In this document: positions 1,591 through 19,863 of the stretch, piece after piece
Layout: each line of letters opens with the position of its first letter
Numbering within the stretch: the stretch's first letter is position 1
Source: Oscillospiraceae bacterium
GTDB taxonomy: Bacteria; Bacillota; Clostridia; UBA1381; UBA9506
Assembly (NCBI GenBank): GCA_015068865.1
Contig: SVJT01000003.1
Location: 1-37,003 of the forward strand
Length of the DNA stretch: 37,003 nt
Reading direction: 5' to 3'
The notes under the pieces: model-generated
The model's database searches: none
Seen by the model: the letters and a program-made list of their open reading frames with translations, nothing else
Told to the model about the DNA's origin: nothing
Position numbers and translations under genes: made by a program

Positions 1591-3369
1591 TTACTTCTTC
1601 GATACAAACACTGTCTTGTAGGTATTTTTAAATTTCTTTCTGAATTCTTCTGCAAAAGCATCCTTAACGATCGCAGGTTCTTCCTCTTCTTCGCTGCCCA
1701 TCTCTGCAAGCAGTTCTTTCACTCTTGCATCAACTTCTTCTGCGCCGCCGAAGAGATAACCCGGTTCAGCTGCTTCATCCTGTGTGTCATCAATATATTC
1801 GGTGGGTTCTGTGCCTTCCGGTGTAATAACCCAGTAGCCTGCCTTTGAATAAGCAAATTCTCTTTCGCCACTGGGCTCATAGATATAGCTGCCTTCGGGG
1901 AATTCAACGGTCTGCTGACCAATGCGGAAGGTTAAGGGATTGTCAGAAACCTTAAAGCTTTCAATCGTCGGAACATCAGCTGTTGACATATCCGGTGTGA
2001 TTCTCCACACATTCTTGCCACCGGCGCTCATACCGGTTAAAATGTAGCGGGAATCCCAGGGGGTAAAGTCTTTAATAAGTGTTTTTCTGTCCTCAAAGCC
2101 AATCATATAATCCAAGTCTTTTAATAGTTCAGAGAAAACAAGGTTATCATCAATACCTTCATTACCTGCCTCATAGTTATAGAACAGGAACTGGTCAGAC
2201 TCTAAAAGACCTAAGTGGTAGATAAATTCCTTGTAATAATCGGTAGCTGCAGCAGGGCCTCTGTTGTTATAGGACCAGGTGTAAGAGCCTACCCAGGGGC
2301 GGAAATACCGCTGACCGGGCAAGTATAACACATTTGACTGTGCAGACACCAGGTTCAGCAGAATTGTGTTAAAGGGTGTTGAATAATAGGTAGCATAAGG
2401 GTAATCCGGCGGTGGTGCACCCTCTAAGCCTTTGTCAACTCGTAAGTAAAAGTTGGGAGAAACGTGGGTTCCGCCAACAATTTTACGTTCTTCCATGGGT
2501 GTAGCCTCTCTGTACAAGCCATACATATGTCCGGCAGCAGAAGAGGTTCTGCTGGGCTCAGCACTGACCCCTGAGCCATAGTCGGAGAAGCTAATGTCAG
2601 GATAGTGCTTTTTCCACACCTGATAAACCTTTTCCATACAATTTTCCATAAACCACTCGCCTGCCCAACCAATGCCATTATATACATGTTGTTTTACAGG
2701 AGAATTCAATTCACCGGTATTGGCATACGCATAGAGGTGATACAGTTCGGGGTGGTCATCACCCTCATAAATGGGAATACCGTAATCAATAACACTCTGT
2801 CTGAGTTCGGGGTATCTGGGGTCAGTTTCTGCCAGCGCATAGTACTGATCCATTGTCATGCCACGTTTACTTGCATTACTTTCCTGATACCACACATTAC
2901 ATGCTGACTCGTGGTCGCAAACAACGGCATCAATAGGTTTGCCGCCTAACCGTTTGTAATAATAAATGATTTCATCCATCAATGCTTCATATTTAGGAAT
3001 ACCATCATACCAGAAAGCATTGGTTTCCGCTCTGGTACCCTCTGAAAGGGAGTTAAAGGGGTTAACAGCACGCTTGCCGTCAGGAATAGTGTCAAAATAT
3101 GTTTTCATTTTGCGGGCAGTTTCAATGGCACCGTCTTTATAGTTTACACGGTTTGCAGCCGTTGTAGCCGTATTTCTGAGGGTAAAGGGCTGATAGAGGT
3201 TATCAGCGCCGGAGGTTTTCTCCCAAACCCACGCAAAAAACGTGCCGCTTTTGCCCGGTGTAAAGTCATTGTCAACTGTTGTTGCCACTTCTTCAGCAGA
3301 TACTGCACATAAAGAAGCTATGCATAGTACAGCGCACAACAGTGCAGTCAATTTTTTAACAAGCTTCAT
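1591..3369 (-). CDS. Exported protein, putative hydrolase-like, paralogue of the 735-aa protein
   Basis: 592 aa with a clear Sec signal peptide (MKLVKK, hydrophobic core, cleavage near AVSA-EE). It starts at ATG 3369 behind a GGAGGCC-type site. The family is not one I recognise. It shares ordered landmarks with the 735-aa protein at 14766-16973: a Trp-containing first strand (FFAWVWE), KxKxYF, IDAVVCDHE (D152, E154), a DPRYPE segment, ELYHLYA, SDYGSG, PWVGSY, an FIYHLGLL helix and ILTGMSAGGKNVWRITPD. The pattern of strands ending in acidic pairs (VVCD-x-E) suggests a TIM-barrel glycoside-hydrolase-like fold with D152/E154 as catalytic candidates; this is inference. The C-terminal ~60 residues are acidic (SEEEEEP) and end in a basic tail. 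It is the last gene before the operon terminator, 21 bp after the solute-binding protein gene. Confidence 0.9.
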   Translation of the reverse strand: MKLVKKLTALLCAVLCIASLCAVSAEEVATTVDNDFTPGKSGTFFAWVWEKTSGADNLYQPFTLRNTATTAANRVNYKDGAIETARKMKTYFDTIPDGKRAVNPFNSLSEGTRAETNAFWYDGIPKYEALMDEIIYYYKRLGGKPIDAVVCDHESACNVWYQESNASKRGMTMDQYYALAETDPRYPELRQSVIDYGIPIYEGDDHPELYHLYAYANTGELNSPVKQHVYNGIGWAGEWFMENCMEKVYQVWKKHYPDISFSDYGSGVSAEPSRTSSAAGHMYGLYREATPMEERKIVGGTHVSPNFYLRVDKGLEGAPPPDYPYATYYSTPFNTILLNLVSAQSNVLYLPGQRYFRPWVGSYTWSYNNRGPAAATDYYKEFIYHLGLLESDQFLFYNYEAGNEGIDDNLVFSELLKDLDYMIGFEDRKTLIKDFTPWDSRYILTGMSAGGKNVWRITPDMSTADVPTIESFKVSDNPLTFRIGQQTVEFPEGSYIYEPSGEREFAYSKAGYWVITPEGTEPTEYIDDTQDEAAEPGYLFGGAEEVDARVKELLAEMGSEEEEEPAIVKDAFAEEFRKKFKNTYKTVFVSKK

Positions 3370-3390
3370 ATTGTTGGCCTCCTTGTTTCA

Positions 3391-4857
3391 TTATTTGATT
3401 TTAAGCCATTCATCATACTGTTTCTGCATTTCTGCAAGGAGCTTATCAACGCCAGCGGCTTTCAGCTTCTCCATAGCCTTGGGCAGGGTTTCATCTGGAT
3501 CGGCAGTACCGGTCAGCAATGAAGGCATATATTCAGAAATAACGTTGGATACAGCTGAATATTCACTCTTAACATTAGCAGGGTCAAAGGCAAAGCCTAA
3601 TGCAGGAGATTTGATGGCATTTTCGTCAAATTCTTTATATTTATCATAAATATCGGCCGGTGTACCCTCTACCATTCTGGTAATGTACTTGTTACCCTGT
3701 GTGAATACATAGGTGTTGTAACCGGTTTCAGCCAGATTTTTGAATCCTTCGGGAATTTTATAGAAATCTTCGCCAACAGGTTCCCAGTGCTTGCCTTCAA
3801 TACCATAAGCAATTAAGTTTCTTAAATACTTATCAGTATTTAAAAGATTTAAAAATTCAACTGCTTTTTCAGGGTTCTTTGCTCTTCTGCCTAAAGACAT
3901 CATGGCACCGCGGGCATTTTGGGTACCCAGACGGGCTTCCCAGAGATGCAGAACTGAGTGCTTATATTTAGCTGTTACATTTCTCTGGTCTACCAAATAC
4001 GGCAACTCATCCTGCTGACGCATAAATTCATCGTTGATATCGTTGTTGTTATCAATGGTTGCAATTTCGGGACGCATAAAGCCCTGTTCATAGAAGCTAT
4101 GCATCATTTTGTAGTATTCCTTTGCTTTATCTGTATCAAAGGGATTTACAATTTTTGTGGGGTCGCCATCCATATCAATACAGCCTACGACACCGCCGGG
4201 AATTTTATCGAATCTTGTAATATCATAGAACGGTGTGTCGTTGTTGTTAAACACCAAAGGATAAATGGTGGGTTCGTTTTCCTTAATGGTTTTTAAGATA
4301 GGCTCTAAATCTTTAAATTCTTTTACTTTTGAAAAGTCAAGATTATATTTTTCTGCCAAATCGGTTCTGTAGTAGTAAACGGTTTCAGCTGCATAGTCCT
4401 TATAGAAAGGAATTGCATATAAAACTCCGTTGATTCTGGCAGCATCTAAAATATATTCGGGAACAAGTGTCTTTAAGTCTTTACCATATTCATCAAGATA
4501 GGGTTCTATGTCTAAAAAGCCCTTATTGGCTGAGTGAATTTCATACTGTGTTCCGGATGACATGAAGCAAAGGTCAAAAGGCTCACCGGAGGCAAGAAGG
4601 AGCTGAATTTTTTCGTTATATTCCGAACCTACAATGGGAACGTTTTTAACCGTTGCACCAATTTTTTCAGCCAGATATTTGTTTACTTCTTCATATACAA
4701 GCTTATGGTCCGGTGTTAATGCGCCTCTGTCGTGCCAAAAAATTTCAGGCAAGTTTCCATTAGCACCTTTTGATGTGTTACCGCCCCCAGCACAGGCTGT
4801 TAAAGAAAATACTAAAACAGCTGCTAAAAGACCGGCAATGAGTTTTTTCTTATTCAT
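3391..4857 (-). CDS. Extracellular sugar-binding lipoprotein, LplA/DUF3502 type
   Basis: 488 aa. The chosen start is the internal ATG at 4857 (MNKKKLIAG), because AAAGGAAG lies 5-8 bases upstream of it; the ORF-track start six codons earlier has no such site. The type II signal peptide ends in the lipobox LTAC (lipidated Cys22), so the mature protein is a membrane-anchored lipoprotein. The body fits family 1 extracellular solute-binding proteins that serve carbohydrate ABC importers. The C-terminal ~130 residues (ALGFAFDPANVKSEYSAV through the end) match the DUF3502 region typical of LplA-like oligosaccharide binders. Its partner permeases are encoded upstream in the same operon (13828-14739 and 8373-9326), and the ATPase is missing. 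The substrate cannot be read from sequence. Confidence 0.93.
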   Translation of the reverse strand: MNKKKLIAGLLAAVLVFSLTACAGGGNTSKGANGNLPEIFWHDRGALTPDHKLVYEEVNKYLAEKIGATVKNVPIVGSEYNEKIQLLLASGEPFDLCFMSSGTQYEIHSANKGFLDIEPYLDEYGKDLKTLVPEYILDAARINGVLYAIPFYKDYAAETVYYYRTDLAEKYNLDFSKVKEFKDLEPILKTIKENEPTIYPLVFNNNDTPFYDITRFDKIPGGVVGCIDMDGDPTKIVNPFDTDKAKEYYKMMHSFYEQGFMRPEIATIDNNNDINDEFMRQQDELPYLVDQRNVTAKYKHSVLHLWEARLGTQNARGAMMSLGRRAKNPEKAVEFLNLLNTDKYLRNLIAYGIEGKHWEPVGEDFYKIPEGFKNLAETGYNTYVFTQGNKYITRMVEGTPADIYDKYKEFDENAIKSPALGFAFDPANVKSEYSAVSNVISEYMPSLLTGTADPDETLPKAMEKLKAAGVDKLLAEMQKQYDEWLKIK

Positions 4858-4921
4858 AATATCTTCCTTTCTCATAAAGGTTCTGGGTTGATAAAGTTCT
4901 GGAGACTTCTCTCAAGGAGAA

Positions 4922-4960
4922 GGCTTTTCGGGACGGATGAATCCGTCCCTTACAAAAGCC
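4922..4960. repeat. Palindromic intergenic element (REP/MITE-like)
   Basis: In the 117-bp gap upstream of the binding-protein gene lies a two-tier hairpin. The outer arms are GGCTTTT / AAAAGCC, and the inner perfect 9-bp stem is GGGACGGAT / ATCCGTCCC with a GA loop. It lacks a T-run, so it is not a classical terminator. The form resembles short dispersed GGGACGGAT-type repeats I recall from Clostridia genomes. Only one copy is in this window, so repetitiveness is unproven. It could stabilise or partially segment the operon mRNA just before the abundant binding-protein cistron. Confidence 0.55.
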
Positions 4961-4974
4961 GAATAAATCAGTGT

Positions 4975-6645
4975 TTACTCAAAGGGTGTAGCCTCTGTAA
5001 GAGGTTGAATGTCTGCCCATGTATCCCAAACATAGATGCAAGCTGTCATATCATCACTTTCTACTGTAAGAGCATCGGTGATATAAGCCTTTTCAACAGC
5101 ATCAGTTTTACCTATTTTATAGATAATCTGTTCAAGCTGATTGCCTTTATAAAGAGCTAAGAAAATCACATAATCCTGAGCTTCACCGCTATTTGTCATG
5201 GTGACCTTAGCTTTTACTTTTGTGCCCTTTGTAATGGCATCAACGGAAGTTGCTTCATCGTCTCTTACAAACTCAACCTTATCGACACTAAAGGTCGGGC
5301 TTTGGATTGTGATATTGTACGTTTTCTCAATATTCTTGCCGACAGGGTTAGTAATATTATCAAAGGTTAATGTATACGGGCTACCTGCAGCAGGCAATGC
5401 GCTTAAGTCTGCCTGAATGGTGCTGCTGTTGATGAAGCTTACGGTGCCAACATTTTCATTGCTGCCGTTTGTAAGGGTAATCTTGTTCACATCACCGGGC
5501 ACAAAGTTGAAGTTTTGGGCTGTAAAGGTAAGAGGAGCATCGCCCTGACTCATTGTGATTGCGTTGTTGCTGTCAGCAGCAGCGCAATCAATGGAAGGAT
5601 CACTGATTTTATAAACCTTAAAATCATCAACCAGTACATAGTCTCCTTCTGCCATACCTATAGTTGAAAAGGCCAAGCTATAGATATCTCCTGTTCTACC
5701 AAAATCACGCATATCATCATGGCCGCCTATGCAGTCGCCCTGATCATCGAAAACATATACCTTACCTTCATAATGTGCAGTTTCAGAGGTAATATAAGCT
5801 TGGCTTGATGCATCATAAGCGCCACGGGTGCTATCATACTCAACAACTTTAACAAAAGTATACCATCTATCATTTTCAAGTTTTCCATCTACAATGGTAT
5901 CAGTCATATATGTTTTGCTATTGATATTATTTAAATTGTAGTCATATTTACCCGCCGGTAAAACAAACACATCACCGTTTTCAATACCGATGGTAGAAAC
6001 ATATACATCGTTACCACTGTTTCGACCACCAATATAGCTAGAGCTGTTATAATCTGCCTGGAACAATCTATATGAGCCGCTTGTTACATCAGAAAACTTC
6101 ACTTTGATTTCCCAAACAAACTTGGTGCCGGCTTTGGAAGCAATCGGTCTTAAAGGATGATTGCTACCTGCAGCTTGTGCATTATTAGCACCCATTGCAA
6201 CGCTTCTGGAAACCAGATCGTAGGTTGTTGTAACTGTTCCCGTTGCATCCTTAATGGGGCCACCGTAAATTTTTGCAACCATATTGTCGGTATCACCGTC
6301 AAATGATGCATAAGCATCTGCTGTACGCTTCTGATTCGTTCCTCTGTTAAAACCACGTACATTTGTGTTTGCCTTCTGAAAAGCTGTCAAATTATAATTA
6401 GCTGTCGGCAATGTTTTTTCTGTCACTTTACCATCTGCATCTCTTGTGGGCGTATAATCTTCCGTCATACCATGGTCATTATCAACAGTCAGTTGGTAAT
6501 GAGGTGTTAAGCCTGTCAGACCTAAATCACTGTATTTCGTGACCGAAGTTGTGGAATTTGCCGCAAAAGCGAAAGGAGCGAGTGTCACTACCAGTGACAA
6601 AACAATTAGCGTTGCTAAAACTTTTTTACCTAAAAATTTTACCAT
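4975..6645 (-). CDS. Exported surface protein, paralogue of the next gene (556 aa)
   Basis: Signal peptide MVKFLGKK...APFAFA-AN; AGGAGG lies nine bases before the ATG. Residues ~35-348 form a module shared with the adjacent 553-aa protein. Common markers are KYSDLGL at the N-terminus, VWEIKVKFSDV, YRLF, a GDVFVLPAGK strand, WYTFVKVV, HYEGKVYVFD, the hallmark GGHDDMRD (307-314) and a closing DDFKVYK. The alternating beta pattern suggests a jelly-roll/concanavalin-like carbohydrate-binding domain, with the acidic HDDMRD possibly binding metal; this is inference. Residues ~350-450 look like an Ig-like domain (ends TYNITIQ). The last ~100 residues form a second beta domain ending in ACIYVWDTWADIQPL, a tail seen in two other proteins of this operon. 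No wall anchor of its own is visible. Confidence 0.9.
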   Translation of the reverse strand: MVKFLGKKVLATLIVLSLVVTLAPFAFAANSTTSVTKYSDLGLTGLTPHYQLTVDNDHGMTEDYTPTRDADGKVTEKTLPTANYNLTAFQKANTNVRGFNRGTNQKRTADAYASFDGDTDNMVAKIYGGPIKDATGTVTTTYDLVSRSVAMGANNAQAAGSNHPLRPIASKAGTKFVWEIKVKFSDVTSGSYRLFQADYNSSSYIGGRNSGNDVYVSTIGIENGDVFVLPAGKYDYNLNNINSKTYMTDTIVDGKLENDRWYTFVKVVEYDSTRGAYDASSQAYITSETAHYEGKVYVFDDQGDCIGGHDDMRDFGRTGDIYSLAFSTIGMAEGDYVLVDDFKVYKISDPSIDCAAADSNNAITMSQGDAPLTFTAQNFNFVPGDVNKITLTNGSNENVGTVSFINSSTIQADLSALPAAGSPYTLTFDNITNPVGKNIEKTYNITIQSPTFSVDKVEFVRDDEATSVDAITKGTKVKAKVTMTNSGEAQDYVIFLALYKGNQLEQIIYKIGKTDAVEKAYITDALTVESDDMTACIYVWDTWADIQPLTEATPFE

Positions 6646-6677
6646 TTTTGTTTGCCTCCTGTTTTAATTTAAATAAT

Positions 6678-8339
6678 TTATTCACCTAAAACCGTAACGG
6701 CTTTAAGAGGAATTTTGTTTGTCCAGTCAGACCATACCGTTATATAGGCCTTGGCTGTGCCGCTAAGGGCCGGAACTGTGATTGCCTCTGTTGTGAGGGT
6801 AACCGGTGTTCCATCGTTTGCAATAGAATCAAAGCTGAGAGCTTTAACGCCAATCAATTTATTCCCATCATATAGTGTTAACAATGCAACCGCGCTACGA
6901 GTGGTCGCATCATTGTTGGTAAGCGTTACGCTTGCCTTTAAAACCGTGCCTTCTGTCAGCTGAGTAACCGGTGCCACCCCATCACTTCCAACGAAGCCCG
7001 CCACGCCCGCTGCAAGTTTATCTGCATCTTTGGTCAGGCTCAGGTTAACCGCTTGTGCACTAATACCCAAACCGTTTTGAAGACCACTGACTGACAGACT
7101 GTAGGTTACGCCGGGATACAGGTTTTCCTTCGGTGTAACTGTAATGCCGCCGGCAGCCTTTACAATGTTTACCGGAACATCATTTGCACCGTCTTTCAAT
7201 GTGATAGTCGGTGTTGCATTGCTTGCATCAAAGCTTGTTGCCAACGAAATAGCCGGTTTGGCAGCAGACACCGTAATGGCCCCTTCTGTGGGTGCTACAC
7301 TGTCAACAGTGGTTGTTACCGTGGGCGCTGCTAAGTTATATGCCTTGTAATCATCAAACATTGCGTAGTTGCCTTCTGTAAGACCCTTAACGGTAAAACC
7401 GTGTGAGGAAATGCCTTTGCCCTGATATCTGGCAATGTCACGCATATCATCGTGTCCGCCGAGGCAGTTGCCACTTTCATCAAACACGTATAATTTGCCT
7501 TCGTAGTGGCCGGTATCACTAGAAGATGTAATGCCAGTCGCCTTTTCACCTTCAACAAGCTGCACCACACGAACAAAGGTGTACCATTTGTTATTTTCCA
7601 GACCTGTTACAACCATATCGGTCATTTTACCGGTCTGATTTAAATAGCTGTCACTCAAAGATTTTCCTGCAGGATGGATGAAAACATTACCATTTTTCAC
7701 GCCAACAGCTGCCGTGTAAATGGAGATATCGCCGTTGTTACCACCAGTCATTTTATCACCGAATGAAGTGTTGAATAATCTGTATTCACCGTCATTTACA
7801 TTGGAAAACTTTGCTTTAATTTCCCAAACCTGCAAATCAGATGCTCTGGTTTTAAATTCATAGGAATTTGCTGATGTACCACCGTTGGTTTTACCGCCAC
7901 CAACGGAAAAACCGCGGGAAACATTGGCAGCCGCAATTGTTGTTTCACCGCTGAGAGCATCTCCACCGTTCAGCTTAACAACCATATTATCACCATCAAA
8001 GGATGATACAGCTAATTTTAAGCGTTTGTTGTTTGAACTGTCATTATTTGAGTTCAAGCCACGGCAGGATACCGATGAATTACCAAAGTATCTTTTGGAA
8101 TAATCAGTATCAGGGAGCAGAACCTCATTTACGGTACCATCAGGATTTTTTGTTGCTTTCTCAAACGTTTCGCCGTCAACATTCAGGTCGTAAAGCAAGG
8201 TTGCGGTGCCCAAGCCTAAGTCTGAGTATTGCGTAACATTAAGGGAAGTTTCTTCAGCAAAGGTGAGCGGTGTTACACTAACGAAAAGCGCAACTGAAAG
8301 CACAATGCCCAAAAGCTTTTTGAAATTCTTCATAACCAC
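6678..8339 (-). CDS. Exported surface protein with GGHDDMRD module (553 aa)
   Basis: Tandem paralogue of the 556-aa gene, 32 bp upstream of it. The signal peptide core LLGIVLSVALFVSV ends near LTFA-EE. The start is ambiguous: GGAGG is six bases from GTG (8339) and twelve from ATG (8333); the GTG spacing is better, and only two residues differ. Domain order matches its neighbour: QYSDLGL, VWEIKAKFSNV, YRLF, WYTFVRVV, HYEGKLYVFD, GGHDDMRD, DDYKAYN, then an Ig-like segment and a C-terminal domain ending AYITVWSDWTNKIPL. Sequence outside these landmarks has diverged widely, which suggests an old duplication and possibly different ligands. A role in binding polymer at the cell surface is inferred from fold pattern and operon context. 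Confidence 0.88.
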   Translation of the reverse strand: MVMKNFKKLLGIVLSVALFVSVTPLTFAEETSLNVTQYSDLGLGTATLLYDLNVDGETFEKATKNPDGTVNEVLLPDTDYSKRYFGNSSVSCRGLNSNNDSSNNKRLKLAVSSFDGDNMVVKLNGGDALSGETTIAAANVSRGFSVGGGKTNGGTSANSYEFKTRASDLQVWEIKAKFSNVNDGEYRLFNTSFGDKMTGGNNGDISIYTAAVGVKNGNVFIHPAGKSLSDSYLNQTGKMTDMVVTGLENNKWYTFVRVVQLVEGEKATGITSSSDTGHYEGKLYVFDESGNCLGGHDDMRDIARYQGKGISSHGFTVKGLTEGNYAMFDDYKAYNLAAPTVTTTVDSVAPTEGAITVSAAKPAISLATSFDASNATPTITLKDGANDVPVNIVKAAGGITVTPKENLYPGVTYSLSVSGLQNGLGISAQAVNLSLTKDADKLAAGVAGFVGSDGVAPVTQLTEGTVLKASVTLTNNDATTRSAVALLTLYDGNKLIGVKALSFDSIANDGTPVTLTTEAITVPALSGTAKAYITVWSDWTNKIPLKAVTVLGE

Positions 8340-8372
8340 TTTTTTCCTCCTTATTTGTATTTTTTATCTCTC

Positions 8373-9326: not shown

Positions 9327-9369
9327 TCTTTTATTTCCTTTCTAAAAGCGCTTTCCTTTCGGAGGTGTT

Positions 9370-12081
9370 TTATTTATAGATAATCATTCTTCTCGGGTCA
9401 CCGTAACGACGCCAGATGATCCCCTTTGTATAATCCCCTCCGCAGGTGAGGTAATCACGGATCTGGTAAGCAGTCGCAGGAGATACTTCATTCTTCACAC
9501 TATCATAAACAATGGCCTTTTTAAACACACTGTTTCTTGACAGAAGAACTAAGAACATATCTTCAGCATTTGCCCAGCTTTCACAAGGAACCAACGTTGT
9601 TGTGATATAGCTTCCGTCATACTGATAAACATTTAATCTTGTAGCATACATGCTTTCATTGGGGTGCCACATCTTGTTAATGTCACCATCATCGTTTGTG
9701 CCTAAGAATGTATCCGTTGAATAGTCATAAACTGCTTCAATCTTGGAAATCTCACCTTTAGAGTTTGTTGCAAAGCGGAAAATATCACCCTGATCCAGGC
9801 TGTGTGTTGTTACGTCATCATTAGATACGCTAACTCTGGTTAAATCAACACTGGAGTCAAGTGCTTTTGTGAGCACAGTACCTGCATCGGAATAGCGAAT
9901 CATTGTTGTGGGCTCGCCTTCTAAATTCAGGCCAACAACTTGTTCTAAGAACAAGTGAATTTGTGTTTCTTCAGGAATGCTAATTTTCTCTTTGCCGTTT
10001 TCCATTGAAATTTGTTTCACAATGAATTCGAAAGCCATGGTATTGGGGTCTGTTTTATATGCTTTACCAAAAACACTGGTGTTGCCGGAGGTCGCCAATG
10101 TGAAAGAGCCATAGAGCTCGTGAGATGCAGATGCATCTAAAATACCTTGATTGTTATAAGGAGCCTGCATCAGAACTGATTTGCCCAATGCATACCGGGG
10201 AGTTGTGGAGGAACCCACACCAAAAGCTCTGAATGCCGGATTGTAAAGCAGTTTTGTTGTTGTACCGTCATAAGCAAGGTAAAGACCAATCTGACCTTCT
10301 CTCTTGGGACCAACCAGGTCGATCGTGGTAATTTCCGCTTTATCATTTGTTTTAAAGCGTAAGGGCTGAGGAATAAAGGTTCCGGTTGCAGGAACAACAC
10401 CCTCACCGTCTTTATAAAAATGCTTCAGCGCATCTTTCGGATTTTTACATCTGATGCCGTCAATCACACAGTTATCTGCAATGTCAAAGTATTCAACCAA
10501 GCCCAGCTGTGTGTAAACTTTCAGCGTAACATCATCGCCTAATGCCTTCTCTACTTTCTCAGCAATGGCAATACCAAAGGAGAAATCAGACATATAGTTG
10601 CTGTATGTTACTGCCCAGGCGATTTTGCCAAAATGATTGAGTTTGAATGTATAGGTGCCGCCAACTTCACAGGGGGTAATCTTTGTATTGGCTACATAAT
10701 CATTAAAGACTTTTGCATATTCATACTTTGTTTCGCCAACAGTTAAATAGGTCTTATTATCATTTTCAATGCCCTTTACCATACCTGTTTCTGATTTGTT
10801 ACTCCGGTAAATAACAGCCTTTTTGTTTGTTGCGTCTTTTAAAACTGTGATAACATCATCTGCTGAAATGTCAATGAGCTGGAGTTTTTCACCGGTAGCA
10901 CTGTCATAAAAATCAATGGCATCATATTTGCTGAAATCAAGTGCTGTATCATATTTAGGATAAATTTTATTGTTTTGAGTATCAACTGCAGCAACAACAT
11001 AATCAACATAATTCAAAATGCTGACAACGTCATATTTACCGTCGTTGTTATTGTCAACAAAGTTAACCTCGCCCTGGTCGGGAACGGAAACAAAGCTTGT
11101 GCCTTCTGCACTGACTCCGTTATACAGAACAATGGCACCTGAGGTAGAAATTGTCTCTGTATCACCATCCTCATCTAAATATGTATAAACTCTTTTTGAA
11201 TAGCTTACAATATCGTCTGACGGAATGGTGAGAACTTCGTTTCTGAAGGGAGCAATAAAGAGAGTTTCTCTGTCTGCGCTATCTCCTTTATAATAGGCCT
11301 TCACTCTGTAGCCAAGGTACTCAGTACCCTTGCTGCCGCTTACACTATAGCCAACCCGGTTTATATTAATTATATTGCCTGCTGTTGCATTATCGTTGCT
11401 CAGCGCACCATATTTTGTTGCTGTCACAACACCATCTGCAACATAAATATCATGATATTCAGCTAACAATGTGTCGCCCTTTTCGTATAACACACCGCCA
11501 TTATCGCCTACGCCGGCTTCTATGATAACATTTGTCTCTAAACTGTTATCAATTAAGCGGTACATCATTTCTCTGCTGATGGTTCCATCCTCATTTTTGC
11601 TGATTCCGGAAAGAATCTTCGCTCTTTGCGCTGCCTCCATAAATGCCGCATCGCTATTACCTTTCATCATGGCATCGTAGCCTAAAAGATTAACCATCGC
11701 TTTAACAGCTTCAACATATGTAAGTTCGTTTGTCGGAGCAAAAAGACCCTCTTCGTTTGACATGAAGCCTAAGATGATTGCTGCGTTAATATAACCTGCT
11801 TCATAATAATCAGAAGATACGTCATAGGAATAATCAGTGTCAAAGTAGCCATATGCCAAGGTGTCTGCATCTGCAAGTTTGACCAAAATTTCTGCATATT
11901 CAGCACGGCTTACTTTACCTGCCGGATCCTGATTGATAGATGCTTCATCTAAAATCCCGATTTCCGCGAGGAACTGTATACTTGCCGGTTGAGTACTGTT
12001 TTCTTTTGCCATCGCTACTCCCGATACCGGAATCAGCATTAATGCAAGCAAAAGAGCTATCAGTCGTCTACAATGTTTCAT
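9370..12081 (-). CDS. Large SLH-domain surface protein (N-terminal SLH, 903 aa)
   Basis: Signal peptide MKHCRRLIALLLALMLIPVSGVAMA. Residues ~30-190 hold SLH repeats (LAEIGILDE, VSRAEYAEILVKLA, GYINAAIILGFMS, ELTYVEAVKAMVNLLGY, ISREMMYRLID), which anchor proteins to secondary cell-wall polymer. The remaining ~700 residues are predicted beta-rich, with no enzyme motif that I recognise. A DNNNDGKYD stretch (~343-351) and DEDGD (~303) look like calcium-binding loops. The ATG overlaps the stop of the upstream SLH gene (TAATG), with AAAGGAG inside that gene's end, so the two are translationally coupled. Likely a structural or polymer-binding scaffold on the wall; inference. Confidence 0.9.
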   Translation of the reverse strand: MKHCRRLIALLLALMLIPVSGVAMAKENSTQPASIQFLAEIGILDEASINQDPAGKVSRAEYAEILVKLADADTLAYGYFDTDYSYDVSSDYYEAGYINAAIILGFMSNEEGLFAPTNELTYVEAVKAMVNLLGYDAMMKGNSDAAFMEAAQRAKILSGISKNEDGTISREMMYRLIDNSLETNVIIEAGVGDNGGVLYEKGDTLLAEYHDIYVADGVVTATKYGALSNDNATAGNIININRVGYSVSGSKGTEYLGYRVKAYYKGDSADRETLFIAPFRNEVLTIPSDDIVSYSKRVYTYLDEDGDTETISTSGAIVLYNGVSAEGTSFVSVPDQGEVNFVDNNNDGKYDVVSILNYVDYVVAAVDTQNNKIYPKYDTALDFSKYDAIDFYDSATGEKLQLIDISADDVITVLKDATNKKAVIYRSNKSETGMVKGIENDNKTYLTVGETKYEYAKVFNDYVANTKITPCEVGGTYTFKLNHFGKIAWAVTYSNYMSDFSFGIAIAEKVEKALGDDVTLKVYTQLGLVEYFDIADNCVIDGIRCKNPKDALKHFYKDGEGVVPATGTFIPQPLRFKTNDKAEITTIDLVGPKREGQIGLYLAYDGTTTKLLYNPAFRAFGVGSSTTPRYALGKSVLMQAPYNNQGILDASASHELYGSFTLATSGNTSVFGKAYKTDPNTMAFEFIVKQISMENGKEKISIPEETQIHLFLEQVVGLNLEGEPTTMIRYSDAGTVLTKALDSSVDLTRVSVSNDDVTTHSLDQGDIFRFATNSKGEISKIEAVYDYSTDTFLGTNDDGDINKMWHPNESMYATRLNVYQYDGSYITTTLVPCESWANAEDMFLVLLSRNSVFKKAIVYDSVKNEVSPATAYQIRDYLTCGGDYTKGIIWRRYGDPRRMIIYK

Positions 12082-13808
12082 TATACTTCTCCTTTCTGTA
12101 TAATCGCATAAATGATTTTAGCAAGTTCTGCTCTGGTTATGGTCTTTTTAGGAGCAAACTGGTTATCGCCAACGCCGCCTAAAATATTCAGTTTCTTAAG
12201 TGAATAGATAGCCTCTTTAGCATAGTCTGCCATTTCACCATCATCAGCAAACTCTTCTGCTTCCATTTCAGGCATTTCTACTGTATCCTTTATCAATCTG
12301 TATATCATTGTTGCTGCATCTTCACGTGTAACGGCAACGCCTACACCAAATGCATCGCCCATACCTTTAATGATACCGTTTGAATACATATTGTTAACAT
12401 ATGAATAATACCAGGCTTCTTTATCTACATCTGCAAATTCAGGCAACTGTTCTTCGCCGTTACCTACTTTGAAGCCAAGGCTCAAAACTTTTGCCAGTTC
12501 TTCTCTTTTGAGAACATCATTGGGATAAAACTTACCGGGTTCTTTTCCGCTGATGACCTTCATTTCTGCAAGCGCTTCAATCGCATCCTTTGCCCAAGAT
12601 ACATTTTCAATATCAGAAAAAGCTGATGTGAGTGGAACCGGAGTTACAGTTGTATCAGGTCTGATTGCCACTGTACCGCCGCCACCACCGCCGCCAATAT
12701 TCGGCACAACCGGCGGAGCGACTACCGCAAAGGAAATATTGCTGTTGATTCTCTGAACAAAGTCAGTAACTGTGGTGGCACCAGATGCCAGATTCCACAA
12801 AGCTTTCTGATTTGTCGCATTTTCATAGTTTGCATCTAAACCGTGATTCGTTTTTAAGTAGTTTATAACCTTTCCAATAATCTGACCAACTTCGCCGTCT
12901 GTTGAAGCATTGGAAATAACACTCATAAACATTGCATCTGAAAATTTGTCAGCCAGTGCATCTTTATCTACATTTGTCTGAATTGATGCATTGAAGCCGG
13001 TAATCATATCGCTGATATTGGTTGCTGTATTATAAGGTTCTTTTGCAAACAGCTCCGTGTAGCATTCCAAAGATGCAATGCCAAGTTCTGCTGCCTTTGT
13101 TTTCATTGTGTTAATCTGATCCGTTTCGCTCATGGATAAAAATGATTCTACGAAAGCTGTTTTATTAAAGATATTCCATACATCAGCTTTCGTCTCAGTG
13201 CCATCCATTGCACAGAATTTGTATGCAAGATAGTCATAAAAGATATCCTTCTGTGCTGGTGTCATCTGATTGTACACGCTGTAATTGTCTGCTGAAGAAA
13301 GTCCTAATACTTCTTCGCCTTTCAAACCATCAAACTCAGTATCCGTAAAGAGCTTCTTGGTTCTGGCTACTGCAGTATCGCCATAGGTCATACCGGACAG
13401 TTCAAGAATCAGATTATTAACTGATGTTGTGGGAGCAAAGGGAATAGATTTCTCAAACTTTTTGTTAGCACGGGGAACATCTGCCGTAAAGGTATAAAAG
13501 CCTGCTCCACCGGCAATTTCAAAGCTGAAAATCGCATTGCCGTCTGCACCAACAGTTTTCTGAGCTGCGCCTGCCAAAACACTCTCCAGTGAACCGCCGG
13601 CTAAATTTGATGCTGATTTGCCGGGTCTGTAGAGCATTGCCATTACATCATAGCCTGCGTAGCCGGTGCCAACATCTACTGTAAATGTTATAGTGTCTCC
13701 CACCGGAGAAATGGTGACTGCTTCTTCCGTGTTGGCAAATACAACAGCTGTTAAGGAGTTGACTGCAATCAGCACAGAAATCACTAAAATTGATATTAGT
13801 TTTTTCAT
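12081..13808 (-). CDS. SLH-domain surface protein with poly-Gly linker (C-terminal SLH, 575 aa)
   Basis: The ORF track starts 28 codons too early, inside the permease gene. The real start is MKKLISIL at 13808, with GAGGAGGG just upstream and a good signal peptide (ends VVFA-NT). Residues ~30-140 are beta-rich (Ig-like; TITFTVDVGTG). Residues ~150-375 are mostly helical, with repeated Asp-Lys-Phe type segments and no known motif. A run of seven glycines forms a linker, and residues ~396-575 carry three SLH repeats (AFSDIENVSWAKDAIEALA, FADVDKEAWYYSYVNNMYSNGIIKG, FADDGEMADYAKEAIYSL). The anchor is C-terminal, the reverse of its coupled neighbour. The protein probably presents its helical domain on the wall; the function of that domain is unknown. 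Confidence 0.92.
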   Translation of the reverse strand: MKKLISILVISVLIAVNSLTAVVFANTEEAVTISPVGDTITFTVDVGTGYAGYDVMAMLYRPGKSASNLAGGSLESVLAGAAQKTVGADGNAIFSFEIAGGAGFYTFTADVPRANKKFEKSIPFAPTTSVNNLILELSGMTYGDTAVARTKKLFTDTEFDGLKGEEVLGLSSADNYSVYNQMTPAQKDIFYDYLAYKFCAMDGTETKADVWNIFNKTAFVESFLSMSETDQINTMKTKAAELGIASLECYTELFAKEPYNTATNISDMITGFNASIQTNVDKDALADKFSDAMFMSVISNASTDGEVGQIIGKVINYLKTNHGLDANYENATNQKALWNLASGATTVTDFVQRINSNISFAVVAPPVVPNIGGGGGGGTVAIRPDTTVTPVPLTSAFSDIENVSWAKDAIEALAEMKVISGKEPGKFYPNDVLKREELAKVLSLGFKVGNGEEQLPEFADVDKEAWYYSYVNNMYSNGIIKGMGDAFGVGVAVTREDAATMIYRLIKDTVEMPEMEAEEFADDGEMADYAKEAIYSLKKLNILGGVGDNQFAPKKTITRAELAKIIYAIIQKGEV

Positions 13809-13827
13809 AAAAAACCCTCCTCTATTA

Positions 13828-14739
13828 TTAGAATAATGAAATTTCTTTTGATACTTTTTTAGATACCCAGTTGGTGAACATAACCATTGCAAAGCCGACT
13901 ATTGACTGATAAAAACCTGCAGCAGCCGTTGCACCCATATCACCGAGTCCCGTCATACCGTTATAGATATATGTATCAAGAGTACTCGTTACCGAGTATA
14001 ACATACCGGAGTTTTTCGTAATAATATAATGCAGACCAAAATCACTTCGGAGTACGGAACCCATATTCATAATAAAGAGGATAACCAATGTGGGTTTCAG
14101 CATAGGAATGGTGATTTTTGTAATTGTTTGCCACCAGGTAGCGCCATCAATTTTTGCCGCTTCATAATACTCTAAATCAAAGCCTCGTATGGTTGAATAA
14201 TAAATGATACTGTTAAAGCCAACATTTTTCCACATTGACAAAATAATCAATATGAATGGCCAGACTTTTGGCTCCGCATACCAGTTGACCGCCTCGCCAC
14301 CAAAGGATTTGATTATATTGTTGAATACACCTTTATCTACACTGAGCAATCCGAAAACAAAATAGGAAATGACAACCCAGGATAAAAAGTGAGGTAAAAG
14401 AACAATCGTCTGATTAACTCTGCTGACTTTCGTTTTACCAAGCATATCGAACACAATTGCAAGAGATACAGCCAAAATAATACCTAAGAAAATACCACCG
14501 ACACTGTATAAAATTGTGTTTCTTGTAATTATGTAAGCGTCTGAGGTGTTGAACAAATACTCAAAGTTTTTAAATCCGACCCACGGGCTGCCAAAAATAC
14601 CGTCAACATAATTATAATCTTTAAAAGCAATGATGACTCCGAACATAGGAAGATAATGGAAAATGATAAACCATATGAAGCATGGTGCTGCCATTATCAA
14701 AAGCGGAAAATTTGCTTTAACATCTTTTAAAAATTTCAT
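13828..14739 (-). CDS. Carbohydrate ABC transporter permease (LplB type)
   Basis: 303 aa, about six membrane segments. It starts at ATG 14739 behind AAAGGAGAAAATT. The EAA motif for ATPase docking lies at ~193-212 (EAAKIDGATWWQTITKITIP). N-terminal FHYLPMFGVIIAFKDYNY is characteristic of LplB/YtcP-type polysaccharide permeases in Firmicutes. It precedes the SLH gene by 19 bp and follows the 735-aa secreted-protein gene by 26 bp, so it is well inside the operon. With LplC and the lipoprotein it makes an importer for an oligosaccharide of unknown identity. Confidence 0.96.
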   Translation of the reverse strand: MKFLKDVKANFPLLIMAAPCFIWFIIFHYLPMFGVIIAFKDYNYVDGIFGSPWVGFKNFEYLFNTSDAYIITRNTILYSVGGIFLGIILAVSLAIVFDMLGKTKVSRVNQTIVLLPHFLSWVVISYFVFGLLSVDKGVFNNIIKSFGGEAVNWYAEPKVWPFILIILSMWKNVGFNSIIYYSTIRGFDLEYYEAAKIDGATWWQTITKITIPMLKPTLVILFIMNMGSVLRSDFGLHYIITKNSGMLYSVTSTLDTYIYNGMTGLGDMGATAAAGFYQSIVGFAMVMFTNWVSKKVSKEISLF

Positions 14740-14765
14740 ACCCTAATTTTCTCCTTTTATTAATA

Positions 14766-16973
14766 CTAATTTGCTTTTTCCAAATCTACCGAAGCCCCAA
14801 GAGGAACCAATCCATCACGATCATTCCATAAAAACAATTTGATGCTTTGAACCTTTTCGTCAATATCAGAAATTCTGTAGATTTTATAACCATCTTCACC
14901 GAAGGCTATACTGCCTTCAAATATGTTATGAACAAAGGCTAACCGTTTGCCGTCATCCGTATATCCGGCTGCAAAAACAACAGCATTTGCCATGTCGCCC
15001 GACAAGTTCTGATATGAAAATCTGACTGTTATATCTTCGCTGAACGCTTCACTATTCATCAAACCTGTCGTATTGTCAAACACATGAAAACTTGTAACAA
15101 AGTCACTCTCTATTTGTGTATAGTAATCATGGTCATAATTAATTTCAGGATAAACATTTACAGGCGTTTCTACCCAATAGCCGTTCTCTGCAATGCTCCA
15201 GTCATTTTCTATAATTTTACCTTGCGGGAAAGTTATTTCTGTTCCCGAAATTTCAAAAGTCGGTGTGCTTTTTTCTTTACAAAATGATTCAATTGTGTAA
15301 ACAGCTGCACCGTTTTCGTCAGTTAATTCTAAATTCGGCGTAATGCGCCAGATGTTTCTTCCATTGGCCTTCATACCGGTCAGGATGAAATCTGTATTCC
15401 AGGAATCCAGGCTTTCCGTCAGAATTTCTCTGTCAGGATATCCTGCCATAACATCCAGTTCTTCTAGACAAGCATTCAGCTTTTCCGCCTGCCCTATAAC
15501 ATAGTCATCCGCCTCATCATTATATCTTGGACCCCAGTAAAGAAAAACATCAGGATTCAAAAGACCAACATGGAAAACCATTTCATAATAATATGGCGTC
15601 CGTCCAAAATAGCTTTTTATTTTATAGGTATAACTTCCATCATCGTTTTGTTTCTCAATATCTCGGTAATCATAATTCGCAACCCATGGCATAAATCCGT
15701 TGTCCTCTGACAAGGTTATCCCTCTGGCACGGTTTACGTCATATTTTAACAGTGTATAGGCATCTCGTAAGTAATTCCCATCTGCATCCAGGTTTGCAAA
15801 CTGCAGATACTGTTTTTTAGAGTTGGCATTTAGCGTACCATATAAGGAAGAGGACGAATGGGTTCCTGCATAGGAGCCTTTTCCTGCTTTATAGCCATCA
15901 TGACCGTTGGAGGATATCATATGTGAACGTTCTCCCGCAGCATGACCATAAGCCGAGCTCTTTGCATCGGGATAATATTTTTTGACAACGTCAAACACGG
16001 CTTCATTCAAATAAGCTACTCTTTTATTGGTAATAACTGAATTCCACTTAAGTGAATTCACCGACCACGGTGATGCATAAAGATTATACAGCTCCGTCTC
16101 CGCATTATCAGAAAACTCAAAATTTCTTTCAACTAACTGAGGTCTTATCTCTGTAGCATATCGCGGATCGCTTTCAATGGCTTTAAACGGCTCGTATCGT
16201 TCTCCACCCGCATTTGTAATGTTGATTGACTTTGTTCTCAGATTGGAGGCATCCATCGGTGTAGGCTCAAAGTCACACACAACACCGTCCACCTGTCCGC
16301 CAATTTCCTTAAAGCTTGCAAAAAAGCTTTCCATATAACCTTTTAGCTCACTTACATCCCACCATAAGTAATTTTCGCTTTCATCATTAATAATACTGAT
16401 GAGTTTCTGCCAAACGATCATATATCGTCTGCCGACCGGGAAGTTTTCAAAATAAGCTTTTGCTTTTTCTGCCGATGCTTTAATTTTTTCTTCGTTGATT
16501 ACCCTTTTTGTGACATCGTTTTCCGTCACCTCATCACAGCAGTCAGAAAGCTTGATTCTATAGAACGGGAAAATATAGTCACTTTGATAATCGCCTGACC
16601 AGCTTGTTGCAAAAAACTGAGGATTAACCCTTGAAACATCATACGTTATATCATGACAGTTTGACATCCTGAGCGTATGATTCCCGGTACCCTCCGGAAT
16701 ATAGAAGCTTTCAGAAATTTCTCCGTTTTCATCCGCTGTAACTTGACCGATATAGCCTATGGAGCCTACATTAATATCATCATTTTCTCCGCTTCCGGGC
16801 TTAAAAAATAAAATAGCAACCTTAGCTCCTGAAACGGATTTCGCATTAACATTTACAATGACTCCATCGTCTTTTATCAGCACCGTGTTGTTTTGTGCAG
16901 CTTCTGTTTCAAACTGCATAAAACCCAGGGCGAGCAAAAATATACAGGTCATACACAAGATTTTTTTAAGCAT
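14766..16973 (-). CDS. Exported protein, putative hydrolase-like, paralogue of the 592-aa protein (735 aa)
   Basis: I place the start at ATG 16973 (MLKKILCMTC). GGAGGAGAAGG directly precedes it, and it overlaps the kinase stop by eight bases (ATGCTTAA). The ORF-track start nine codons earlier has no better site. Signal peptide ends near ETEA-AQ. Residues ~28-115 form an extra N-terminal beta domain missing from the 592-aa paralogue. Residues ~118-610 carry the shared core: FFATSW, KAKAYFENFP, VDGVVCDFE (D234, E236), ESDPRYATEIRP, ELYNLYAS, SSAYGHAAGE, MPWVANYDY, FHVGLL, ILTGMKANGRNIWRITPN. The C-terminal ~110 residues form a beta domain ending IKLFLWNDRDGLVPLG, like the tails of the 553- and 556-aa proteins. 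Enzymatic activity is inferred, not shown. Confidence 0.9.
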   Translation of the reverse strand: MLKKILCMTCIFLLALGFMQFETEAAQNNTVLIKDDGVIVNVNAKSVSGAKVAILFFKPGSGENDDINVGSIGYIGQVTADENGEISESFYIPEGTGNHTLRMSNCHDITYDVSRVNPQFFATSWSGDYQSDYIFPFYRIKLSDCCDEVTENDVTKRVINEEKIKASAEKAKAYFENFPVGRRYMIVWQKLISIINDESENYLWWDVSELKGYMESFFASFKEIGGQVDGVVCDFEPTPMDASNLRTKSINITNAGGERYEPFKAIESDPRYATEIRPQLVERNFEFSDNAETELYNLYASPWSVNSLKWNSVITNKRVAYLNEAVFDVVKKYYPDAKSSAYGHAAGERSHMISSNGHDGYKAGKGSYAGTHSSSSLYGTLNANSKKQYLQFANLDADGNYLRDAYTLLKYDVNRARGITLSEDNGFMPWVANYDYRDIEKQNDDGSYTYKIKSYFGRTPYYYEMVFHVGLLNPDVFLYWGPRYNDEADDYVIGQAEKLNACLEELDVMAGYPDREILTESLDSWNTDFILTGMKANGRNIWRITPNLELTDENGAAVYTIESFCKEKSTPTFEISGTEITFPQGKIIENDWSIAENGYWVETPVNVYPEINYDHDYYTQIESDFVTSFHVFDNTTGLMNSEAFSEDITVRFSYQNLSGDMANAVVFAAGYTDDGKRLAFVHNIFEGSIAFGEDGYKIYRISDIDEKVQSIKLFLWNDRDGLVPLGASVDLEKAN

Positions 16974-18759
16974 CCTTCTCCTCCATTCCTTCATCTTCAA
17001 TTACCGGAAGTTTAAGCACTGCCATTGTTCCTCCGCTTTCACTATCCTGATAACTCAATCCGTATTGTTCACCAAACTTTATCTTGATTCGTCCATTCAC
17101 ATTTTTAATTCCGATTTTTTCTTTAGAAAAAACGCTGCTATCGCCTGCAATATATCGGTTAAGCAATTCCGTGTCACAGCCGAAGCCATTATCCGATACA
17201 CAAATGACCAAATGCTCTTGTTTGATTACCGCATTGATTGTAAGCTGGTTTTGACCTTCCGGCTTAATCGCATGAATGATAAAATTTTCAACAAGAGGCT
17301 GAACAACAAATTTGGGAATCAGAAGATTTTGTATCTCATCATCCATTTCCATTTTAAAAACGAATTTATCTTTATGGCGCATTTCCTGTAGTTTCAAATA
17401 CCCCAAAATAAACTTCATTTCCTCACGCAGGCTGATTAAATCATCCGTTTGCTTTACACTATAGCGAAATCCGTTTGACAGCACATCAATCATCTCGGCT
17501 ATTTCATCTTCGCCTTTATCCAAAGCCATCCAGGAAATAGAATCAAGAGCATTATACAGAAAATGCGGATTAATCTGTGCGCCAAGAACCTTCATTTCCA
17601 TTTCTTTTTCTTTTTTCGCACTGTTTTCAGTTTCTTTTAAGAGATGATTTATCTTTCCAAGCATTAAAGAGAACCCTTTGTACAGTTCTTTTATTTCTAC
17701 CGTATTCCATCGGCTCCCCTTGGGCATTCTGTTTTTTTCGCCACCAAACTCTGCCATTGTTTTGCTTAATTCAACAATTGGGCAGGAAAGATAATTTGCC
17801 ATAATATTTGCAAAGAAGATTAAAACAGCCAGAGCTATAATGACAATTAAAAAAACGTATTGCAGCATATTAGAGAACTTTGCAGATACATATTGAGTTT
17901 CAACAAAGGAAAATATGTTTATACCAAAGTTCATCGGATACGAATTCGAAAGAAAACTTTCACCGTCAATCTTTATTTTCGTGAATTTTTTATGACTCAA
18001 AATCGTGTCCGTATAGTCTAAAAGCCTTGCATCTTCTATAAAATCGGCTCCGCAAATAACGTTTTTATCTTCATCAACGATTGCCAGATGCACAGCATCT
18101 TCCATGTTTTTGCTGTTATACTTCAAAAGCAATTCTTTAAGATTCAGTTCAATAATATTAATGCCTAAAATAGTTCGATCGTAAGAAACATTATCATAAA
18201 TCACCTGAGCAAAAAATATACTGTCAGGAAATGTTTCATCATAAAAAGAGACGATATTTTCTCCCAGATACTCTTGTTTGACATTTGTAATTTCCTCTAT
18301 AGTTTTAGAGCTTTTATACATATACGTCTCATATTTCTCAAATGCGTCTATATCTGTAAATTCTAAAACATATTTTGCAAAAGGAGCATTGGCGTTAACT
18401 AAAAATTTAGGAGTGACAATACTTGTTGAATCTGAAAAATATACATCAAAGAGTCTCTTATATTCCTGTTTTACCTCTTCTGCCGCAAAAACCAACTCCG
18501 TTGTTGACTGATAATCCTGTTTAATCTGCCTGACGATGTTTTCATCAAAGCTTATCTGATCGTTAAACCGCTGTATGTCAGACATTATATTCTCAATTTC
18601 TGTAGTACAGTTTTTTATATTAAAATCAATTTCATCAATGACAAACTCCGTCATTCTGCTATAAAAAAAGGTATACATAACAGAACCAATGATGATGGTT
18701 GATAAAAGCACAAAACAAACCAAAAAGATAAACAGTTGCTGTTTAATACTCAGTTTCAT
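16966..18759 (-). CDS. Sensor histidine kinase, YesM family (597 aa)
   Basis: The preferred start is ATG 18759 (MKLSIKQQLF); AAGGGG lies seven bases before it, while ORF-track starts further up sit on top of that site. Two membrane segments (about 9-32 and 299-322) flank an extracellular sensor domain of ~265 residues, and a HAMP-like stretch follows. The His_kinase domain has the phospho-acceptor in AQINPHFLYNALDS (H399), the N box PLVENFIIHAI (N492) and the G box DNGFG (523-527), typical of the LytS/YesM class. It overlaps the response regulator by 17 bases, so both are co-translated. Such pairs sense extracellular sugars or polymer fragments and control a nearby importer; the ligand is unknown. 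Confidence 0.96.
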   Translation of the reverse strand: MKLSIKQQLFIFLVCFVLLSTIIIGSVMYTFFYSRMTEFVIDEIDFNIKNCTTEIENIMSDIQRFNDQISFDENIVRQIKQDYQSTTELVFAAEEVKQEYKRLFDVYFSDSTSIVTPKFLVNANAPFAKYVLEFTDIDAFEKYETYMYKSSKTIEEITNVKQEYLGENIVSFYDETFPDSIFFAQVIYDNVSYDRTILGINIIELNLKELLLKYNSKNMEDAVHLAIVDEDKNVICGADFIEDARLLDYTDTILSHKKFTKIKIDGESFLSNSYPMNFGINIFSFVETQYVSAKFSNMLQYVFLIVIIALAVLIFFANIMANYLSCPIVELSKTMAEFGGEKNRMPKGSRWNTVEIKELYKGFSLMLGKINHLLKETENSAKKEKEMEMKVLGAQINPHFLYNALDSISWMALDKGEDEIAEMIDVLSNGFRYSVKQTDDLISLREEMKFILGYLKLQEMRHKDKFVFKMEMDDEIQNLLIPKFVVQPLVENFIIHAIKPEGQNQLTINAVIKQEHLVICVSDNGFGCDTELLNRYIAGDSSVFSKEKIGIKNVNGRIKIKFGEQYGLSYQDSESGGTMAVLKLPVIEDEGMEEKDA

Positions 18760-19777
18760 CCTCATGCCCCTTTTCATAAGACATTGTTCTGTACTGTGTT
18801 GGTGTTCTGCCCATGCGTTTTTTAAACACCCTCATAAAATAGCGTATATCACTGTATCCAACTTTGTTCGCTACCGCCGAAACATTCATATCAGTTTCCA
18901 GGAGAAGCTCAGCAGCTTTCATAATTCGATAACTGATAATCCACTCTGAAAGAGAGCTTCCATTTTCCGATTTAAAGAGCATCGATAGATATTCACGAGA
19001 CAGGTTAAAGCTATCTGCTATATGTTGAACATTTAAGTTGTTGTCACCATAATTCTCGTTAACATAGGCGATGATTCTTTTGGTCATTTCTGCTGATTTA
19101 GAACCCTGTACAGCAGAATGGCTGTTATATAAATTCTCCAGAAGCTTTTTTCTGCATTCTTCAACGCTCGAAGTAGCAACAACCTGTGCCATCAGAGCAT
19201 TTTTTTCATCCGTATTTGTGTTCGGAAGAAAATTAATCAACGTAATACAATATTGTTTATATAAAGTCAGATTGGAAAACCCCTCATCAGGCACTAAAAT
19301 ATTGGCAATTCTATTATAGTCATGAGATAAATAAGCATCTACAAAATTGCCCCTGAACTCATTTTTTATCATACCCGACATGATTTTTTCCGTCATATTT
19401 TTTTCGGTATTCAGTTTTTTTACAAAAGTCTCAATTTTAGAAAGCTTTTCTCTTGTAATCGGTTTTATAATATATTCTTTAACGCCTAAAGAAATTGCTT
19501 CCTGTGCATACTCAAATTCAGCATAGGCACTCAGCAAAATTGTATTGACGGCAATTCCCTTATTGTATAGATATCTAAGCAATTCAAAACCATCCATAAC
19601 CGGCATTCGAATATCAGAAATAATCAAATCAACATCTACTTCAGCCAGTTTATCTATTACCTCTTGTCCGTTTGCCGCAAGAAATATAACCTCAGCACCG
19701 AGTTCTTTCCAGTTAATATGATTCAGGAGACCACTGCGTACAGAATAATCATCATCAGCTATAATAACGCTTATCAT
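18743..19777 (-). CDS. Response regulator with AraC-type DNA-binding domain, YesN family
   Basis: 344 aa, first gene of the operon. GGAGGAG lies five bases before ATG 19777. The receiver domain (1-~120) has acidic residues D8-D10, phospho-acceptor D55 in IISDIRMPVMDG, S83 and K105 (IIKPI). A helical linker follows. The C-terminal ~100 residues form two helix-turn-helix units of the AraC/XylS family (VQHIADSFNLSREYLSMLFK and AVANKVGYSDIRYFMRVFKK). Phosphorylated by the overlapping YesM kinase, it would activate the importer operon, including itself. Direct binding sites are not obvious in the 270-bp upstream region. Confidence 0.97.
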   Translation of the reverse strand: MISVIIADDDYSVRSGLLNHINWKELGAEVIFLAANGQEVIDKLAEVDVDLIISDIRMPVMDGFELLRYLYNKGIAVNTILLSAYAEFEYAQEAISLGVKEYIIKPITREKLSKIETFVKKLNTEKNMTEKIMSGMIKNEFRGNFVDAYLSHDYNRIANILVPDEGFSNLTLYKQYCITLINFLPNTNTDEKNALMAQVVATSSVEECRKKLLENLYNSHSAVQGSKSAEMTKRIIAYVNENYGDNNLNVQHIADSFNLSREYLSMLFKSENGSSLSEWIISYRIMKAAELLLETDMNVSAVANKVGYSDIRYFMRVFKKRMGRTPTQYRTMSYEKGHEDETEY

Positions 19778-19834: not shown

Positions 19835-19863
19835 ATTATATCATCGTCAAAATTACCAAACAA
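19835..19863 (-). promoter_or_regulatory. Probable sigma-A promoter of the two-component/importer operon
   Basis: On the minus strand, TTGTTT and TATAAT are separated by 17 bases, about 58 bp before the response-regulator ATG. The -35 box is weak, consistent with a need for an activator. The rest of the 19778-20048 gap holds the terminator at 19958-19993 and no gene that I can see. Confidence 0.6.

Follow-up and report, generated by a model that had tools for sequence, protein, structure and literature searches.

How Gram-positive glycan degraders of the gut, if they have neither SusC/SusD nor cellulosomes, keep polymer and enzymes at their surface is an unsettled matter. It is raised by a locus in which a co-inherited gene set links a sugar importer of classic type with two wall-anchored proteins that recur as a pair across the order, with two families that have no known relative and with an exchanged domain of binding type. 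Are its eleven genes one working unit, and does the wall-anchored pair belong to that unit or just travel with it? The window, by which is meant the whole stretch of DNA analysed (37,003 bp), is an entire contig (C63) of a MAG from an uncultured member of the gut Clostridia, of 1.74 Mb in 161 contigs and 81% complete. The account favoured here, which we hold to be moderately probable, is that the eleven genes are one regulated transcription unit that captures a complex glycan outside the cell, processes it at the surface and imports it, a variant of the Gram-positive polysaccharide utilisation locus (gpPUL). What is newest about the locus is the SLH pair, which recurs throughout the order, and its two families not described before, rather than its split importer.

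The genes and their transcription signals

Eleven minus-strand ORFs occupy 1591-19777 in tight array, at the place and with the roles claimed for them in a preliminary description of this DNA. In the direction of transcription, the features are:

19835..19843 (read 19843-19835), minus strand: extended -10 promoter element TGATATAAT, 57 bp before yesN
18743..19777, minus strand: YesN-type response regulator, receiver and AraC HTH (Pfam Response_reg 1.2e-23, HTH_18 7.5e-22)
16966..18777, minus strand: YesM-type sensor histidine kinase (Pfam His_kinase 7.5e-26)
14766..17000, minus strand: VVCD_A, secreted, candidate glycoside hydrolase of an undescribed family, its C-terminal module common with GGHD
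13828..14739, minus strand: LplB-type sugar ABC permease (BPD_transp_1 1.6e-19)
12081..13892, minus strand: SLH603, secreted, three C-terminal SLH domains (SLH x3, 5.8e-34); likely start ATG near 13808
9370..12081, minus strand: SLH903 (903 aa), diverged N-terminal SLH region and a beta-rich S-layer-like region of ~700 aa
8373..9326, minus strand: LplC-type sugar ABC permease (BPD_transp_1 2.8e-6)
6678..8339, minus strand: GGHD_B, secreted, N-terminal jelly-roll-like beta domain, Ig-like part and the shared C-terminal module
4975..6645, minus strand: GGHD_A, paralogous to GGHD_B, with an exchange of the N-terminal domain between it and the sister species' copy
4922..4960 (core 4930-4949), minus strand: strong palindromic hairpin between GGHD_A and SBP
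3391..4875, minus strand: LplA-like lipoprotein SBP (SBP_bac_1 4.1e-11, DUF3502 1.7e-31, lipobox LTAC)
1591..3369, minus strand: VVCD_B, paralogue of VVCD_A; in genus g4 its homologues have SLH domains at the C-terminus
~1549-1583, minus strand: intrinsic terminator at the operon end, 13-bp stem and T run, -23 kcal/mol

Intergenic distances run from -65 to +43 bp, with some of the negative values stemming from TTG starts (better ribosome sites suggest later starts for some of the genes), the exception being the 99 bp between GGHD_A and SBP; the 117 bp earlier given for that gap applies only if SBP begins at its second ATG. The single promoter and single end terminator that had been proposed are both to be found, and both are kept in a sister species (G088), the extended -10 element at the equal relative position. 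A simple signal scan of the window listed neither. Given the tight array, the kept promoter and terminator and a terminator belonging to the gene upstream, it is likely that the eleven genes are a single transcription unit. Transcription across the gap between GGHD_A and SBP may be non-uniform because of the strong hairpin there, which could process, attenuate or break the message. The hairpin has within it a perfect palindrome, GGGACGGATTCATCCGTCCC, and the equivalent gap in G088, 282 bp long, has additional palindromes and may hold a small repeat element.

Past the terminator is one more minus-strand ORF (3-1514), cut short by the end of the contig. At its position in G088 (L015:335-4918 region) is a gene for a 1141-aa protein that has no significant match in Pfam (one to CATSPERE Ig-like, at 0.048, is below cut-off), then one for a GFO/IDH/MocA oxidoreductase; the genes here are possible downstream catabolic genes. 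On the other side, adjoining the operon in G088 also, 20049-22325 encodes a 758-aa SLH protein with its own terminator (~19959-19994), a possible beta-helix N-terminus and, by eye, an SGNH-hydrolase-like C-terminus (GNSMT...DGHHPN). A DUF5050 protein encoded at 22900-24681 begins with a region resembling a zinc ribbon (CVCGRPN...CIRCSR) and has a single membrane span and a part like a beta-propeller. The stretch 25059-30612, a short way upstream of the operon, holds rnpA, yidC and jag/khpB, then genes for a MgsA/RarA-type AAA ATPase and a methyltransferase, and thiI; this block points to a place close to the replication origin for the locus.

Sensor and importer

Two BPD_transp_1 permeases with a lipoprotein SBP and without an ATPase of their own have the makeup of an importer of the LplABC/YesOPQ type; LplC in addition has MalG/UgpE-like NCBIfam matches, below cut-off. 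That the importer borrows an ATPase, as had been supposed, fits with Pfam revealing no ABC ATPase among the locus genes and with one OB_MalK-bearing ATPase of 374 aa (MalK/MsmX-type) elsewhere in the genome, at G000:C10, though in an incomplete genome more ATPases are possible.

The genes for LplB and LplC are parted by the two SLH genes, in the window and in G088. This had been called unusual, and rightly so: of 48 other loci of the order that were inspected, all 48 have LplC directly after LplB and none is split, and the two are adjacent at both g4 loci also, from which it follows that the split is a derived rearrangement in one genus. It was entertained as the mark of a special machine and set aside in favour of local rearrangement, since g4 has the set unsplit. 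By itself the split carries no functional message.

Two undescribed secreted families

VVCD_A and VVCD_B are paralogues (28% identity, 4e-45), as are GGHD_A and GGHD_B (35%, 4e-82). Neither VVCD protein has a significant Pfam match, nor has VVCD_A one among NCBIfam or PDB profiles; GGHD_A is without a significant Pfam match, and that of GGHD_B to Big_5 (0.00074) is sub-threshold. PDB profile searches with VVCD and GGHD gave nothing significant. The sequences 'VVCDxE' and 'GGHDDMRD', considered as functional signatures, were rejected as they are conserved only within the genus, with one G of the latter motif invariant family-wide. What is invariant in VVCD, across 25-30% identity, is D-x4-D-x-E (D238, D243 and E245 in the numbering of protein A), and many Trp, Tyr, His, Glu, Arg and Pro positions are also kept. 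The spacing of the acidic cluster resembles that of strand-4 motifs of TIM-barrel glycosidases, and is a lead only. A structure model of VVCD_B built from 3 sequences has a pLDDT of 41, too poor to show a fold.

At the other end of VVCD_B, the g4 homologues terminate in SLH repeats (2e-24 in L017:4337-6454, and matched also in its neighbour and in L018). This fusion is direct evidence that the g4 protein does its work at the wall; the VVCD_B of the window has either lost the repeats or never possessed them.

The GGHD_B model is beta-rich with an Ig-like part (pLDDT 63). Its matches among PDB structures are generic Ig/fibronectin-like ones, at TM below 0.22 over the query, and were discarded as uninformative. 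The C-terminal module of GGHD is widespread, being present in 47 of 95 genomes of the order. Divergence of GGHD_A from its G088 counterpart (L015:8547-10136) is most uneven: codons 1-45 are 93-98% identical, those from ~46 to 350 are ~40-60% identical and the remainder 44-87%, while all ten other proteins of the operon are 85-97% identical between the two species (YesM 86%). Such an exchange of the N-terminal domain is what diversifying pressure would be expected to bring about in a binding domain exposed at the surface.

Could VVCD and GGHD both be adhesins without catalytic activity, by which the cell stays attached to plant or mucus surfaces, with import secondary? The beta-rich, Ig-like character of GGHD would suit adhesins, as would the swap of an N-terminal domain between sister species, a frequent happening in surface binding domains. 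However, the invariant D-x4-D-x-E of VVCD and its invariant aromatic and His/Glu positions are more like those of an active site, which is suggestive only, and we regard the adhesin explanation as doubtful.

A co-inherited set

VVCD is found in four of the 95 genomes of the order: that of the window, G088 of the same genus (thus 2 of its 10 species) and G077 and G078 of genus g4 (2 of 4 species). The same locus is present in 'Clostridia bacterium isolate RGIG1655' from goat cecum, apparently identical to G088. Profile scans of 391 sampled genomes of the class and of 339 of the phylum each found the family in one genome, that of the window, and a scan of viral contigs gave none. The 11 full-length relatives detected with a GGHD profile are all in the same four genomes and at such loci.

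G088 has all eleven genes in identical order. In G078 the contiguous block reads YesN-YesM-LplB-LplC-SBP-SLH603-GGHD-VVCD_A-GGHD-SLH903-VVCD_B-VVCD_B, and the genes next to it encode a protein of metallo-beta-lactamase fold, an AraC regulator and, after that, a CitMHS transporter. In G077 the same gene set is divided among several contigs, and its surface part is present at least twice. Every VVCD locus on a long enough contig also has YesMN, LplBC, SBP, both SLH types and GGHD, and none of these orthologous loci retains LplABC while lacking the SLH and paired genes, which was the condition set in the preliminary description for the system idea to fail. Counting against the idea, an importer of 57% identity is present without SLH or other surface genes in G077 (G077:C90). 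Since the same set recurs in two gene orders with patchy presence, there is good evidence, of the comparative kind, for its being a working unit.

Patchiness also bears on whether the operon serves the upkeep of the bacterium's own wall or S-layer, with YesMN sensing wall polymer or envelope stress, the importer salvaging the cell's own wall fragments or peptides, and VVCD and GGHD modifying the secondary cell-wall polymer to which the SLH proteins are bound. SLH proteins do bind wall polymer (PMC6081394), and Pfam recognises none of the locus proteins as a catabolic glycosidase. Against this, VVCD and GGHD are in 4 of 95 genomes while SLH903 is in 83 of 95 with presumably the same wall, so patchy an accessory distribution suits a niche substrate better, and systems for sugar uptake are where SBP_bac_1, MalG/UgpE-like permeases and YesMN are typically met. 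Wall upkeep is, in our judgement, very unlikely to be what the operon is for.

The wall-anchored pair

That SLH proteins bind wall polymer is well established (PMC6081394); if the polymer is pyruvylated csaB is to be expected, and the genome has csaB (279.8 bits, cut-off 213.1). With its three SLH repeats and with csaB in the genome, SLH603 has these two characteristics of an SLH-anchored S-layer protein. SLH903 has just a weak Pfam SLH match (0.015), its region of ~700 aa is without a Pfam family, and a PDB profile search gave nothing significant.

Relatives of SLH903 are nonetheless in those 83 genomes of the order with many copies in each (example loci are L121-L140, L141, L151 and L152), and, when counted with a profile built on what follows the SLH region, in 104 of the 391 sampled genomes of the class, with no Pfam family beyond SLH. 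Twenty SLH903 loci of the order were chosen by rank and not by context. At 16 of these 20 a same-strand gene with C-terminal SLH repeats directly adjoins, upstream in 12 of the 16 as in the window, and with gaps mostly of less than 40 bp or overlaps; genes with such repeats were 7 of 324 in control windows. Outside the order SLH903 genes are mostly alone, 5 of 22 adjoining a C-terminal-SLH gene. Neighbours of the pair across the order include heparinase II/III-like lyases and F5/8 type C, CBM9, FIVAR and beta-helix proteins.

Is the pair then tied to the importer? An LplBC permease is near SLH903 at 4 of the 20 unselected loci and also at 4 of 20 in control windows, the linkage controls being partly biased in that contigs were picked for carrying related matches, in MAG data with short contigs and with kinship ignored. 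Among the matches listed, 17 of 150 SLH903 genes are within 10 kb of an LplB match as against at most 4.8 expected. Despite this modest enrichment, an order-wide tie between SLH903 and LplBC was rejected as a general rule. Viewed from the importer, an SLH gene is in view at 14 of 28 loci taken by LplB similarity, several of them on short contigs. The importer is thus one among several partners of the pair and, as the pair mostly occurs without LplBC in view, linkage alone does not show a connection with import. Of the wall-tethered apparatus working with the importer that had been envisaged, the tethering is supported by the SLH domains fused to VVCD_B in g4 and by csaB, and the dedication of the SLH proteins to the importer is not supported, the pair being order-wide.

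The most serious challenge to the account favoured here comes from these same counts. The SLH pair may be a general S-layer module that is merely co-transcribed, having arrived by rearrangement to add anchoring or layer structure with no locus-specific role, in which case the working unit would be only YesMN, LplBC, SBP, VVCD and GGHD. The breadth of the SLH903 family in order and class, its usual occurrence without LplBC and its mostly solitary state outside the order all speak for this. Yet g1 and g4, although their gene orders are shuffled, both retain the two SLH types at the locus, the listed SLH903 genes are near LplB in excess of expectation and it is VVCD_B itself to which SLH domains are joined in g4. 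The co-transcribed module is unlikely to be the correct explanation, though it deserves to be taken seriously.

A bolder conception, offered tentatively and as a rather unlikely one, is that the SLH603-SLH903 tandem would be a general two-protein surface machine, copied once for each glycan locus across the order: a substrate-specific S-layer tile that would act as a SusC/SusD-like part in a Gram-positive wall. Such a tile might, with no greater assurance, present the glycan and the locus-specific enzymes to the importer or to some other uptake route.

What the unit may do

Returning to the eleven genes as one unit for capturing, processing and importing a glycan, YesM would sense a ligand and YesN would switch on the operon. 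SLH603 and SLH903 would together form a wall-bound patch of S-layer. At or near the wall the VVCD proteins, if enzymes, would cut or remodel the glycan and the GGHD proteins would presumably bind it, while the lipoprotein SBP would take up oligosaccharides, the probable cargo, and hand them to LplB and LplC, driven by a shared MsmX-type ATPase coded elsewhere. The preliminary description went further in speaking of plant glycans and a utilisation locus. No locus protein matches a known polysaccharide-degrading family in Pfam, NCBIfam or PDB profiles and, with no recognisable enzyme of this kind among the eleven genes, both terms are therefore things that one infers.

If the pair does prove to be locus-specific, many unannotated loci in Clostridia of the herbivore and human gut become readable as glycan systems, and VVCD, as a candidate enzyme family, and the SLH903 family become new targets.

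Comparison with known systems

The gpPULs of Roseburia and Eubacterium rectale (PMC5320581) are alike in having an ABC importer with its SBP and a linked regulator and no SusC/SusD; the window locus differs from them in being without a recognised degrading enzyme, in LplB and LplC not being adjacent and in its addition of two SLH proteins and two undescribed secreted families. A limited body of literature, searched for SLH proteins in gpPULs, yielded no account of this arrangement, which is not proof of novelty. In Bacillus subtilis, the YesMN-YesOPQ and LplABC-YtcQP importers (PMC5730181) have the same two-component regulator, LplB/LplC-like permeases and SBP, and are energised by a shared ATPase, MsmX, that is coded elsewhere (PMC5730181), whereas in the window the permease genes are split by two SLH genes and the surface proteins have no recognised counterpart there.

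SLH-anchored enzymes and S-layer proteins of Clostridia and Paenibacillus (Cel5I, PMC4976890; PMC6081394) share with the locus SLH anchoring, csaB and, in g4, the VVCD_B-SLH fusion. In contrast to these, SLH903 has its Pfam-less ~700 aa and is paired with SLH603, and in the window neither is fused to a known enzyme. As for a counterpart of a Bacteroidetes utilisation locus, which the preliminary description had seen here, no locus protein has a SusC/SusD-type Pfam match and the resemblance is one of analogy, not homology: as in a Sus-type PUL, a recurring surface pair stands beside variable glycan-related proteins and a regulator, but here with wall anchoring of monoderm type and import by an ABC transporter.
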